The position numbers and the translations under genes are program-made. Below the pieces are notes generated by a model, which worked only from the letters and a program-made list of their open reading frames with translations, was not told the DNA's origin and made no database searches. A stretch of DNA of 32,500 bases, from the NCBI GenBank assembly GCA_028717265.1, contig JAQUOE010000016.1, positions 1 through 32,500 on the forward strand, given 5' to 3'. Origin of the DNA: Actinomycetota bacterium (GTDB lineage: Bacteria > Actinomycetota > Humimicrobiia > Humimicrobiales > Humimicrobiaceae). Each line of letters opens with the position of its first letter. Within the stretch, counting starts at the first letter, position 1. Shown here piece after piece: positions 17,778-26,511 of the stretch.

Positions 17778-18026
17778 GTGGCGCTTCCAAAAAGAAAAAC
17801 ATCCAAATCCAGACGAGATAAGCGTAGAACCCATGACCGGTTAAAAGCTGTAAATGTCGTCGAATGTCCGAGATGCCATAGTAAAAAGATATCACATAGA
17901 GTCTGTGCAAATTGCGGATATTATGCCGAACATGAGATAATCATATTTGAAGACAAGGGCAAAAAGAAAGAAAAGAAAGAAAAGAAAGAAAAGAAAGAGC
18001 CGGAAAAAGCAAGCAAAGAGAAATGA
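17778..18026 (+). CDS. rpmF: 50S ribosomal protein L32 with a Lys/Glu-rich tail
   Basis: A large-subunit ribosomal protein. The first 55 or so residues are standard L32: ALPKRKTSKSRRDKRRTHD, then the zinc site CPRC and CANC (CANCGYY). The start is GTG at 17778, 7 nt after a perfect AGGAGGT (17764-17770). Ordinary L32 has about 57-60 residues. This one has 82, because about 20 extra residues of repeated Lys-Glu-Lys follow IIIFEDKGK. The tail is encoded by an A/G microsatellite (17966-17998) of period 9. The tail's role is unknown. Confidence 0.93.
   Translation: MALPKRKTSKSRRDKRRTHDRLKAVNVVECPRCHSKKISHRVCANCGYYAEHEIIIFEDKGKKKEKKEKKEKKEPEKASKEK
17966..17998 (+). repeat. 9-bp microsatellite in the 3' end of rpmF
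   Basis: About 3.6 tandem copies of GAAAGAAAA (17966-17974, 17975-17983, 17984-17992, then a partial copy). The period is a multiple of three, so copy-number changes keep the frame and add or remove a Lys-Glu-Lys triplet. Confidence 0.85.
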
Positions 18027-22538: not shown

Positions 22539-22594
22539 TTTTGGGATCGGTGGATGACCCTTGGGCAATATTAGCCGGGTGGCGAAATTTTTTC

Positions 22595-23314
22595 ATGAAA
22601 AATAACGAAGAAGTTTTATGTACAAGAGTAAGGAACTGGTTAAAAAAACTGGGAATCGATGCCCCGGATCCGGGTATATATATACAGAGCCTGACTCATA
22701 GATCTTTTGCACGCCAGATAAATATTAAGTCACGGGGTAACGAACAACTGGAATTTTTAGGTGACAGCGTGTTGTCTTTAATTATCACATCGTACTTATA
22801 TAAAAAATATGGCGATTTAACGGAAGGAAAGATGGCGAAGGTAAGGGCGGCACTGGTAAGCAGAAGGACACTTTTTCAAATAGCAAGAGAAATAAAGATA
22901 GACAGGCATATACTTTTAAGCGAGAATGAGGAATCATGCGAGGGCAGGAAAAAGATATCTATTTTAGCCAATAGCCTGGAAGCTCTTATCGGCGCCATTT
23001 ACATAGATAAAGGGATGAAATTTGTAACGGGGTGGATTCTGGGAAGATATAGAGAAAAGATCGAGGAAAATATTAAAACTCCGGAAATCACTGATTACAA
23101 AACCTACCTTCAGGAAATTATTCAGGCTGATTACTCCAAACTTGCAAAATATAAGCTCGTCAGATCCGATGGGCCCGATCATGATAGATCTTTCTTCTCG
23201 GTCGTAACTATTGATGACAGAGTAGTCGGAAAAGGTAAAGGGAAGAGTAAAAAAGATTCCGAGCAGGATGCTGCAAAAAATACTTTGAATACTCTCTATA
23301 AACTAAATTTATAA
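22595..23314 (+). CDS. rnc: Ribonuclease III
   Basis: A double-strand RNA endonuclease that processes rRNA precursors. The catalytic signature NEQLEFLGDSVLS gives Glu50, Glu53 and Asp57; the second metal-site segment is LANSLEALIGAIYID (Asn126, Glu129). A C-terminal dsRNA-binding domain follows (about 160-235, ending GKSKKDSEQDAAKNTL). The start is uncertain. The frame is open to TTG 22541, but that has no ribosome site; ATG 22595 gives 239 residues and the right distance to the conserved WLKKLGI. A GGGTGG about 12 nt upstream is weak support. Position 126 is Asp in E. coli (D114); Asn is known in other family members, I believe, and the essential Glu is kept. Confidence 0.92.
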   Translation: MKNNEEVLCTRVRNWLKKLGIDAPDPGIYIQSLTHRSFARQINIKSRGNEQLEFLGDSVLSLIITSYLYKKYGDLTEGKMAKVRAALVSRRTLFQIAREIKIDRHILLSENEESCEGRKKISILANSLEALIGAIYIDKGMKFVTGWILGRYREKIEENIKTPEITDYKTYLQEIIQADYSKLAKYKLVRSDGPDHDRSFFSVVTIDDRVVGKGKGKSKKDSEQDAAKNTLNTLYKLNL

Positions 23315-23336: not shown

Positions 23337-25655
23337 TTGTATTTAAAGAACATAACACTCCGTGGTTTTAAATCTTTTAAAAATAAAAGCCAATTATTCT
23401 TCGAGCCTGGCATAAGTGTCATTGTGGGGCCCAATGGAAGCGGTAAAAGCAATGTAGCCGATGCTATCTCGTGGGTTCTGGGCGAACAAAGTCCCAGATC
23501 CCTGCGGGGAAGCTCGATGGGAGATGTAATTTTTAAAAGTAAGAATGAAGAAATGGCTATTGCCGAGGTATCACTGCTTTTTGATAACTCCGATAAATCA
23601 TTCGATACCGAATTCAGAGAGGTTAAATTTACGAGAAGAGTTTTTTCCCGCGGAGGAAGTGAATATTTTATAAATTCCTCACCCTGCAGACTGTTGGATA
23701 TCCAGGATCTTACTGCTGACAGTGGTATAGGCAGGGGCCTGCATATTATTATAAATCAGGGTCAGATCAATGAAATTGCCATTCTTAAACCTATCGAAAG
23801 GAAAGCCATAATCGATGAGGTGCTGGGGATATCGAAACATAAAAACAGAAGAGATAAATCCATAAATAAACTCCAAAAGGTCAAAAATGATATCGAAAGA
23901 ATAGACGATCTGATGGAGGAAATAAAAAGAACCATGGATCCCCTCGAAATCGAAGCAAAAAAAGCTCAGAGATATGCAGAAATTTCGAATCTTCTGAAAA
24001 GTGAAGAAATCTCCCTGTTCATTGCTTATCTTAACAGGTTAAATAATGAATGGGAAGATGAAAATAAATCATATAACAAAAATAAAGACAGGATAAAAGA
24101 AATCGACAGTAATATTTCTATTATAGAAAAAGAAAAAAACGATTTTTTTAAGGAAAACATTAAAAGCCGGGATGAGTATGAATCCTGGAAAAATAAAACC
24201 GATTTATTTAATTCGGAAAAAAATAATCTTGAAAACATGGCGGCTCTGATTGAGAGTAAAAAGAACATGTTCGCTACGTTATACAATATGCTCGATCTAC
24301 AATTCGCGGGCGGTACCGGAGGAACAGATGTCCCTCAGGACCCATCCGGGCTTGATAATGAATACGGTGGTGAACCTTTTCTTGAGAAGGTTTCGGAAGG
24401 ATTAAAGAGAATAAATGGCCTGCTGGCAGAGTTGTTGAAAAGGATGAAAAAGAAGTTTAAAGATGAAGATAGTACCTTATATATTGAAAATGAAATTAAA
24501 CCTATATCGGAAGAAATTGAGAAATTGCAGAAAATAATCGGGATTGTCATGAAGAATGAAGGCAAGGGTGAGGCAAAGGGACAGCACAAGGCAGATGCCG
24601 TAAAAATCGATAATTTAAAAAAAAGAATGGAACGTACTGAAAGTATCAGGAATTTTTGTAACCTCAACAGGGAAAGGTCCGAAAAGATCCAATCGCTCCT
24701 GAGCAGTCTTCTGTTGATTTCGGAAAATATAAAAAGAAAACTTTACGGGCAATTTGAAAAAAGAAGTAAATTGATTTCTGAAAACCAGAATAAGTCAAAC
24801 GAATTCGAAAACCGGATAAACCTTTTGAATAACTCTAAATCGAACCTGGAAAATGCTATATACAAAACTGAACTCAGGAAAGAACAAATAAAAGAAAGAG
24901 TCGAAACTATTACCGCAGGCATAGTCGATAATTATAACGTATCGATTGATTATGCCTTAAAAAGTTACAAACCCGCTGTCAAAATCAGGCAGTCCGAGAT
25001 AACGGTAAGAAAACTGAAAAATGAGATAAAAGAATATGGGATGGTCAATCCAAATGCTGCTATCGAATATGGCAGGATCAAAAAAAGATATGATTTTCTG
25101 GCGGATCAGAGGGCTGATCTTATTGAAAGTAAGAAAAATCTGGAGGAACTTATTAAAGAAATAAACGATAGGATATCCGATTTCTTTTTTAAGAAATTTG
25201 ATGAGATAAACGGGTGCTTTAAAAATTATTTTAAAATTCTCTTTCCTCTGGGCGAAGGCGAGATGCAGCTTGAGAAAAGCGATGGCACAGGCGACGATGA
25301 GATCGGGGTGGACCTCAGGGTAGATATTGGCAGCAGTAAGTTTGTGCCGCTTTCTCTCCTATCGGGGGGAGAGAAGTCTCTGATATCCATAGCGTTTCTT
25401 TTCTCTATTTACTCAATAAATCCTTCCCCATTTTATGTTTTTGATGAAGTGGATGCTTCTCTGGATGATGCCAATATAAACCGTTTTCTGGTTCTGGTCA
25501 AAAAATTTTCCGAAAAACAGCAGATAATATTGATTACCCACCAGAAAAGAACCATGGAAATAGCAGATACGATTTATGGGGTAAGCATGCAGTCGAATGG
25601 AATCTCAAAAATAATTTCAGAAAGAATCGGAAAGAAATATGCTGAGATTAATTAA
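23337..25655 (+). CDS. smc: Chromosome segregation protein Smc, short form without a recognisable hinge
   Basis: An ATPase of the condensin family, identified by both half-heads and by position between rnc and ftsY. N-terminal head (about 1-165): YLKNITLRGFKSF, Walker A GPNGSGKSN (31-39), SPRSLRG and the Q-loop region INQGQINEI. C-terminal head (about 640-772): signature SGGEKSLISIAFLFS and Walker B FYVFDEVDASLDDAN. Coiled coil lies at about 168-316 and 425-630, including NPNAAIEYGRIKKRYDFL, a normal C-terminal arm motif. Bacterial Smc is usually about 1,170 residues with a globular hinge of about 150; here only about 105 residues of linker and short helices (322-422) join the arms, with no hinge motif and no CxxC zinc hook. 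TTG 23337 is the start, fitting the family MYLK N-terminus. The frame is intact. Confidence 0.92.
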   Translation: MYLKNITLRGFKSFKNKSQLFFEPGISVIVGPNGSGKSNVADAISWVLGEQSPRSLRGSSMGDVIFKSKNEEMAIAEVSLLFDNSDKSFDTEFREVKFTRRVFSRGGSEYFINSSPCRLLDIQDLTADSGIGRGLHIIINQGQINEIAILKPIERKAIIDEVLGISKHKNRRDKSINKLQKVKNDIERIDDLMEEIKRTMDPLEIEAKKAQRYAEISNLLKSEEISLFIAYLNRLNNEWEDENKSYNKNKDRIKEIDSNISIIEKEKNDFFKENIKSRDEYESWKNKTDLFNSEKNNLENMAALIESKKNMFATLYNMLDLQFAGGTGGTDVPQDPSGLDNEYGGEPFLEKVSEGLKRINGLLAELLKRMKKKFKDEDSTLYIENEIKPISEEIEKLQKIIGIVMKNEGKGEAKGQHKADAVKIDNLKKRMERTESIRNFCNLNRERSEKIQSLLSSLLLISENIKRKLYGQFEKRSKLISENQNKSNEFENRINLLNNSKSNLENAIYKTELRKEQIKERVETITAGIVDNYNVSIDYALKSYKPAVKIRQSEITVRKLKNEIKEYGMVNPNAAIEYGRIKKRYDFLADQRADLIESKKNLEELIKEINDRISDFFFKKFDEINGCFKNYFKILFPLGEGEMQLEKSDGTGDDEIGVDLRVDIGSSKFVPLSLLSGGEKSLISIAFLFSIYSINPSPFYVFDEVDASLDDANINRFLVLVKKFSEKQQIILITHQKRTMEIADTIYGVSMQSNGISKIISERIGKKYAEIN

Positions 25656-26511
25656 GAATCTAAACAATATCTGGAACAAGTTTAAAGATAACCGAAAATT
25701 ATTCTGGGATGAACTGGAAGAACAGATGGTCGCAAGCGACATAAGTATCAATACCACAGGTAAAATACTGGCGGAAGTGAAAAAGTATGTTTATAGTGAA
25801 AATATAAATGATATTGAAAAAATAAAGATACTATTAAAGAAGCAAATCATAGAAATTCTTAAGACTGACGGAGGCGGGGATTTAAAAATATCCACCACCC
25901 CCCCCACAGTATTTTTGATAGTGGGCGTTAATGGGACGGGTAAGACCACTTCGGTTGCGAAGTTAGCCGGTATGTTCAAAGAAAAAAGTAAGAAAGTTCT
26001 GATATCTGCTGCCGATACATACAGATCAGCCGCAGTGGAGCAGATACAGCATTACGCCAGGAAGCTGGATCTGGATATCGTCTCCCACCAGAAATTTTCC
26101 GATCCGGGAGCGGTTGTATATGACAGCCTGGAAAAAGCAATGGCCAGAGGAATCGATCTGGTTATAATCGATACCGCAGGCAGGATGCAGACTTCTTATA
26201 ATCTTATGGAAGAACTTAAAAAAATAAAAAAAGTAATAATGAAGAAAATAGGCCGGGAAGTGGATGAAATACTGCTTGTGATAGATTCTACTACGGGACA
26301 GAATGCCAGAAATCAGGCGGAACTTTTTAATAATTCGTTAAATTTGACCGGAATCATTCTGACTAAAATAGACAGCACTTCCAGGGGAGGAATAGTGCTT
26401 ACGATAAAAAATGATCTGGGTATACCTGTAAAACTGGTTACAGATGGTGAAAAATTGGATAATATACATTTTTTTGATCCAGAAGGATTTACAGAATCCA
26501 TATTCTCCTGA
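25639..26511 (+). CDS. ftsY: Signal recognition particle receptor FtsY
   Basis: The membrane-associated receptor for the signal recognition particle. The 290 residues comprise just the NG domain, with an N-terminal helical part and then the GTPase: GVNGTGKTTSVAKLA (G1), DTYRSAAVEQ (Phe to Tyr change from the usual DTFRAAA), DTAGRMQ (G3) and LTKIDSTSRGG (G4). The acidic A domain found in many FtsY proteins is missing, as in many small Gram-positive-type forms. ATG 25639 lies inside the end of smc, overlapping by 17 nt, with GGAAAG 4 nt upstream, so translation is likely coupled. Its partner ffh follows after 28 nt. Confidence 0.95.
   Translation: MLRLIKNLNNIWNKFKDNRKLFWDELEEQMVASDISINTTGKILAEVKKYVYSENINDIEKIKILLKKQIIEILKTDGGGDLKISTTPPTVFLIVGVNGTGKTTSVAKLAGMFKEKSKKVLISAADTYRSAAVEQIQHYARKLDLDIVSHQKFSDPGAVVYDSLEKAMARGIDLVIIDTAGRMQTSYNLMEELKKIKKVIMKKIGREVDEILLVIDSTTGQNARNQAELFNNSLNLTGIILTKIDSTSRGGIVLTIKNDLGIPVKLVTDGEKLDNIHFFDPEGFTESIFS

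Follow-up and report, generated by a model that had tools for sequence, protein, structure and literature searches.

The smc locus

The window, by which we mean the whole stretch of 32,500 nucleotides analysed here, carries the gene run plsX-acpP-rnc-smc-ftsY-ffh, and the smc features and neighbouring genes described below all lie on its forward strand. The smc gene (23337..25655) is a single uninterrupted frame with a TTG start codon, encoding a hinge-free Smc of 772 aa that was recognised from the open reading frame, Pfam, NCBIfam and the alignment of relatives. It is flanked by two conserved neighbours identified with Pfam, rnc for ribonuclease III (22541..23314) and ftsY for the SRP receptor (25639..26511), the latter overlapping the end of smc by 17 bases. 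The normal smc position that a first-pass annotation had given to the gene is thus borne out. This weak start codon is conserved: every one of the 22 family members examined for it has TTG, as does family f2, and the one member of family f3 compared starts with ATG. The rnc gene is likewise listed with a TTG, at 22541, for which an in-frame ATG at 22595 is the likelier start. Elsewhere in the window, a small ORF (17778-18026) contains a perfect tandem repeat at 17962-17998, consisting of 4.1 copies of AAAAGAAAG with a period of 9.

The head of the protein is that of an Smc. SMC_N, suggested as a check by the first-pass annotation, matches with an E value of 1.2e-65 (Pfam), and the NCBIfam model TIGR02168 (SMC_prok_B) gives 608 bits, above its cut-off of 567. 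The latter match is split into two stretches, as expected of a protein without a middle. The N-terminal ATPase half-head comprises residues 1-164 (23337..23828; AF2 elements and SMC_N) and includes the Walker A motif GPNGSGKSN at residues 31-39 (23427..23453), invariant in 12 relatives. The head-proximal coil and C-terminal half-head span residues 573-772 (25053..25652; Pfam and AF2) and hold, as placed by the relatives' alignment, the ABC signature LLSGGEKSL at residues 674-682 (25356..25382) and the Walker B motif with the catalytic Glu, PFYVFDE, at residues 698-704 (25428..25448). Little or no variation is seen across the 12 relatives in Walker A, Q141 of the Q-loop, the signature, Walker B (including the catalytic D703/E704) or H735, in agreement with the earlier reading of these motifs as intact. 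Together with the best solved matches, which are Smc heads, TIGR02168 and the motifs identify paired ABC half-heads of the Smc type. By its heads, its partners and its descent the protein is an Smc, in a hinge-free variant rather than the textbook form.

Absence of a hinge and conservation of the compact gene

The Pfam SMC_hinge model finds no match at E<=1 in the 772-aa protein, and PF06470 finds none at E<=1 across the whole 1.59-Mb genome; 12 of 14 control genomes were positive. A hinge HMM of our own was run unfiltered on hinge-free and normal Smc proteins, and it scored the hinge-free ones at chance (~0 bits) and nearly all normal ones at 30-118 bits. The absence of a hinge that had been read from the sequence therefore holds for the gene and for the genome. 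A second full-length smc, named earlier as an observation that would speak against this reading, was likewise not found in the genome (94.85% complete), nor was a hinge split off elsewhere in it. A zinc hook is also missing, with CxxC in 0/70 hinge-free Smc, and assignment to the Rad50/SbcC/ASRP type was rejected on the absence of CxxC from the arm tip. RecN was rejected as well, the recN model scoring 64 bits, short of its cut-off of 408.

The compact gene is conserved. In all 22 complete family loci examined, the window included, smc is an open, hinge-free frame of 731-812 aa, which answers the earlier proposal to look at smc in relatives. These loci come from independent assemblies of many genera, and the recurrence of the same uninterrupted compact frame in them excludes chance or assembly error. 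In the family alignment the heads are strongly conserved and the middle is not. Head dN/dS is well under 1 in every close pair. In L006/L007, the pair whose usable divergence is highest (the remaining pairs are noisier), the heads give dN/dS values of 0.09 and 0.06, the arms 0.15-0.17, the predicted hairpin at the arm tip 0.16 and the linkers on either side of it 0.51 and 1.04; among close pairs the hairpin reaches up to 0.8. In general, constraint on the tip hairpin exceeds that on the linkers and is below that on the heads.

Two trivial explanations can be weighed against these data. If the gene were decaying, or misassembled with a stretch deleted from within, a missing domain and half-length arms would be accounted for, but this explanation deserves next to no credence: it is refuted by conservation, that is, by the compact frame in the 22 family loci, the hinge-free forms throughout the class and head dN/dS far below 1. 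The other is a hinge that is present and has diverged too far for HMMs. In its favour, the full-length Actinomycetota Smc L229 and L230 have hinges of only 17-18 bits with our own HMM, and L068, the one full-length exception to that HMM, has a diverged hinge whose Pfam match lies below the cut-off. However, here even the unfiltered HMM is blank, comparing a profile of the middle with profiles of canonical hinges returns a probability of 0.0, the middle has only ~100 residues (~70 in genus g11), and AF2 predicts nothing there except helices and disorder, making a hidden hinge very improbable.

Shortened arms and a predicted tip hairpin

The AF2 model of the window Smc was built from a six-sequence alignment (the window and five distant compact relatives) and has a mean pLDDT of 73.6. 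The N-strand of the arm, residues 165-322 (23829..24302), is predicted as one long helix of ~157 residues, roughly 23 nm, and the C-strand covers residues 425-533 (24609..24935). The two helices are those of an antiparallel coiled-coil arm at half the usual length, the arm of B. subtilis Smc having ~330-344 residues (PMC5344682, PMC12647877), so the arms are indeed about half as long as first noted. Residues 537-567 (24945..25037; AF2) then form short helices where an Smc has its joint. The best PDB fold match of the model is 5xei, a structure comprising Smc head, coiled coil and joint, which suggests that the head-proximal arm is normal and that the distal half is gone. Close to the tip, the return arm carries a single Cys near 24656-24660 (NFCNLN), with no partner Cys; it is kept in many family members and missing from L014-L019.

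Between the two strands the model places a two-helix hairpin flanked by flexible linkers, with no beta sheet. Linker 1, Gly-rich and highly divergent, spans residues 323-344 (24303..24368); hairpin helix A spans residues 345-372 (24369..24452) and helix B residues 379-405 (24471..24551); linker 2, Lys-rich, spans residues 406-424 (24552..24608). Both linkers have pLDDT <50. The hairpin is predicted with moderate confidence (pLDDT ~52-70, from the six-sequence alignment), and its sequence is poorly conserved. The same layout is predicted by AF2 in the Patescibacteria Smc L070, where helices 332-352 and 360-384 lie between linkers, although the two models share one alignment and are not fully independent. 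In hhalign, the hairpins of the host class and of Patescibacteria match with a probability of 42%, against 25% for an arm segment taken from these proteins as a control; in Actinomycetota, an HMM built on 22 hairpins from Patescibacteria scores no higher than background. A search for solved relatives of the tip returned non-significant matches alone, the best being the designed helical protein 2L4HC2_23 (E 0.065).

Partners

The genes for ScpA and ScpB, which the first-pass annotation had proposed to look for elsewhere in the genome, lie next to each other on contig 8. In known complexes the two ends of ScpA bind the two Smc heads. The ScpA match spans profile positions 1-230 of 232, indicating that both Smc-binding ends are present. 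ScpA, ScpB and ParB are all encoded in the host genome and kept in nearly all relatives, with ParB in 37/37 genomes of >=90% completeness. From its sequence, the 772-aa protein looks like the host's only condensin motor subunit, part of a working Smc-ScpAB condensin, and the host and its class as a whole appear to rely on such a shortened motor for chromosome folding.

Distribution among Actinomycetota and Patescibacteria

In a set of 61 genomes that includes the host class (families f1, f2 and f3) and 21 other members of the phylum, no real hinge match was found in any of the three families. One genome of the class gave a chance-level match (E 0.056) in a 59-codon frame. The Smc of f2 and f3, at ~850-890 aa, are likewise hinge-free, and a hinge scored over the cut-off in 18 of the 21 other members. 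Across Actinomycetota more widely, hinge matches occur in 196 of 247 genomes. Among the genomes lacking one, Smc middles that appear from their sequences to consist of helix alone occur in three further families, f4 (~1018-1042 aa), f30 (784-788 aa) and f34 (921-922 aa). The f4 proteins (L220-L225, L056, L057) are Ala-rich, with seemingly full-length arms and an all-helical middle. In f4 the hinge has apparently been lost without shortening of the arms. A missing Pfam hinge match was not by itself scored as loss, because a diverged domain is kept in f43 (17-18 bits with our own HMM) and, by eye, in f53 (L226).

Compact hinge-free Smc were also found in Patescibacteria, including Candidatus Moranbacteria (L071), Candidatus Uhrbacteria (L072) and three further loci (L069, L070, L073); in all five SMC_N is present and the hinge absent, and their genomes encode ScpA. 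Of 145 sampled Patescibacteria genomes, 93 show no Smc match at the threshold of E<=1e-15 and the other 52 do. The Smc frames run from 636 to 1105 codons, with clusters near 705-790, 840-900 and 950-1105 (loci examined include L069-L073, L155-L184 and L234-L236). A hinge over the cut-off was found in 4 of the 52 and no recognisable hinge in the other 48; for 28 complete hinge-free proteins this is backed by chance scores with the unfiltered hinge HMM, the remainder resting on Pfam. Hinge-free Smc thus appear to be present in the whole host class, in three or more other families of Actinomycetota and in most of the Smc-bearing Patescibacteria sampled.

A tree of the heads only (59 rows, 455 columns, careful search) groups f1, f2 and f3 as one clade (100/97) and places f4, f30 and f34 apart. 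It requires six changes of hinge state, and the same number is obtained over the 5-95% range of bootstrap trees. A single origin of hinge loss within Actinomycetota was rejected (p-AU 0.0003) in a test on a larger, quick tree in which all hinge-free Actinomycetota rows were forced together, a grouping chosen after the tree had been viewed. The six changes and this rejection suggest that the hinge was probably lost several times independently. Change counts give no direction by themselves, and loss rather than gain is favoured by the occurrence of hinges in bacteria, archaea and eukaryotes. A hinged Patescibacteria Smc, L185 (G121, 960 codons), nests within hinge-free ones (100/99 with L183 and L072). 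Its position may reflect regain of the hinge by exchange or recombination, or many losses.

Relation to known SMC proteins

The first-pass annotation knew of no described hinge-free Smc. This claim is superseded, the type being widespread here and a hinge-less SMC of oceanic Actinobacteria having been published in 2025 (PMC12153180). The accessible part of that paper describes an abundant cluster from marine metagenomes, annotated to the class Actinomycetes, that AlphaFold predicts to lack a hinge and that is missing the zinc hook too. The 772-aa protein shares the features given there, namely heads and coiled coil, no hinge or zinc hook, and status as (apparently) the sole Smc. The comparison covers features as described. 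The same accessible part does not take up partners, the way in which dimers form or repeated loss. The type is therefore not wholly new, with one recent in-silico precedent in what is accessible of PMC12153180. Its breadth, its repeated loss of the hinge, the retained ScpAB and ParB and the tip hairpin appear to be unreported in the searchable literature, where a search found no relevant paper linking Patescibacteria with hinge-free Smc.

With the bacterial Smc of Smc-ScpAB (TIGR02168) the protein shares heads, motifs, joint region, gene position and the company of ScpA, ScpB and ParB; it differs in its absent hinge, its arms of ~157 instead of ~330-344 residues and its predicted two-helix tip hairpin. 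RecN has a coiled coil without a canonical hinge, but it is a repair protein without ScpAB, unlike the Smc described here. Rad50/SbcC and the archaeal ASRP (ClsN, Sph1) also combine SMC-superfamily heads and a coiled coil with the absence of a canonical hinge. However, they join by a CxxC zinc hook (for ASRP: PMC9389158), which is absent here, and their heads belong by score to other families. The closest engineered cases are the B. subtilis Smc(zinc hook) and Mini-Smc, in which the hinge was replaced and/or the arms shortened and which still work (PMC5344682). These are artificial proteins that retain a known dimerisation domain, and their shortest functional arm has 253 residues; arms of 253-267 residues were functional and those between these lengths and 321 were not (PMC5344682). 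An arm of 157 residues must therefore follow other rules. The hinge channel has been proposed as a selective gate for the bypass of obstacles, and hinges without a channel tend to go with longer arms (PMC12647877), whereas the case here is the opposite, with the hinge absent and the arms shorter.

How two hinge-free Smc might be joined

We propose that the protein would form an Smc-ScpA-ScpB complex in which the hinge is gone and the arms have ~157 residues. The heads would run a normal cycle of ATP-driven engagement, with ScpA, together with ScpB, bridging two heads by its N-end on one Smc and its C-end on a second, and ParB would be the likely loader. The arm tips would be joined, weakly or transiently, by pairing of the tethered hairpins into a four-helix bundle and by arm-arm contacts. 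Such a complex could still translocate or extrude DNA, and with the hinge channel it would have lost hinge-based bypass of obstacles. That hairpin pairing, head engagement and kleisin bridging together unite two Smc is a model to which we give even chances. It is favoured by the prediction of the hairpin between floppy linkers in both the window and Patescibacteria Smc, by its generally stronger constraint relative to the linkers, and by the single-copy smc in a normal locus with intact ATPase motifs and retained ScpA, ScpB and ParB. Two earlier observations point the same way: B. subtilis carrying the Rad50 zinc hook in place of the hinge grows normally on rich medium, which implies that dimerisation does not hinge critically on the fold of the domain responsible (PMC5344682), and arm-arm contacts probably contribute to the dimerisation of hinge-less Smc (PMC5526789). 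The model is weakened by the pLDDT of the hairpin, its poor sequence conservation and the upper values of its dN/dS, by the hhalign and HMM comparisons, which did not establish common ancestry of the hairpins of the two phyla, and by the minimum of 253 residues for working engineered arms in B. subtilis (PMC5344682).

The main rival is an open clamp without dimerisation at the tip, in which monomers would be joined only by ATP-dependent head engagement and ScpA-ScpB bridging, the short arms being free ends and the hairpin merely capping the coiled coil. A poorly conserved tip between disordered linkers and the retention of ScpA and ScpB, which can bridge the heads, fit it, as does the association of hinge-deleted yeast Smc5 and Smc6 sub-complexes through their ATP-engaged heads (PMC8327961). 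However, the hairpin is predicted at the same place in two phyla, the flanking arm is kept up to a conserved stretch at 301-320, and an arm of 157 residues without a tip partner has no obvious reason to persist, so that we regard the open clamp as plausible and, on balance, doubtful. The tip might instead bind another protein (or DNA) as a junction, with the function of the hinge moved to a separate subunit. The linkers and hairpin do resemble a tethered docking element, but a candidate subunit did not emerge, the genes around smc are the ordinary ones and the tip sequence diverges fast, and this reading is improbable. As for the first-pass annotation, which had offered dimerisation by another route, a monomer or a complex joined at the heads only, its expectation that dimerisation at the tip is different or absent stands with the missing hinge, whereas a pure monomer is weakened by a ScpA with both ends and the retained ScpB.

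Returning to the hairpins, the wider proposal is that bacteria have repeatedly swapped the hinge for a tethered two-helix tip hairpin, giving a recurring class of condensin without a hinge channel whose compact forms are half-armed. We hold this tentatively, as leaning slightly to the doubtful side. If true, the class would take in most Smc-bearing Patescibacteria, one whole class of Actinomycetota and at least three more Actinomycetota families. Surveys of arm length that align on the hinge (as in PMC5344682) would overlook such proteins. The hinge is widely seen as a defining part of SMC proteins: it is where the dimer forms, it has been proposed to gate DNA and, in recent work, it is viewed as a selective gate for bypass of obstacles (PMC12647877). 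The proteins described here would be natural hinge knock-outs that keep ScpA, ScpB and ParB, with arms below the functional minimum seen when arms were shortened in B. subtilis (PMC5344682). They would allow direct questions about the purpose of the hinge, about whether a ring must be closed at the tip for loops to be extruded and about the shortest arm with which the motor can work.
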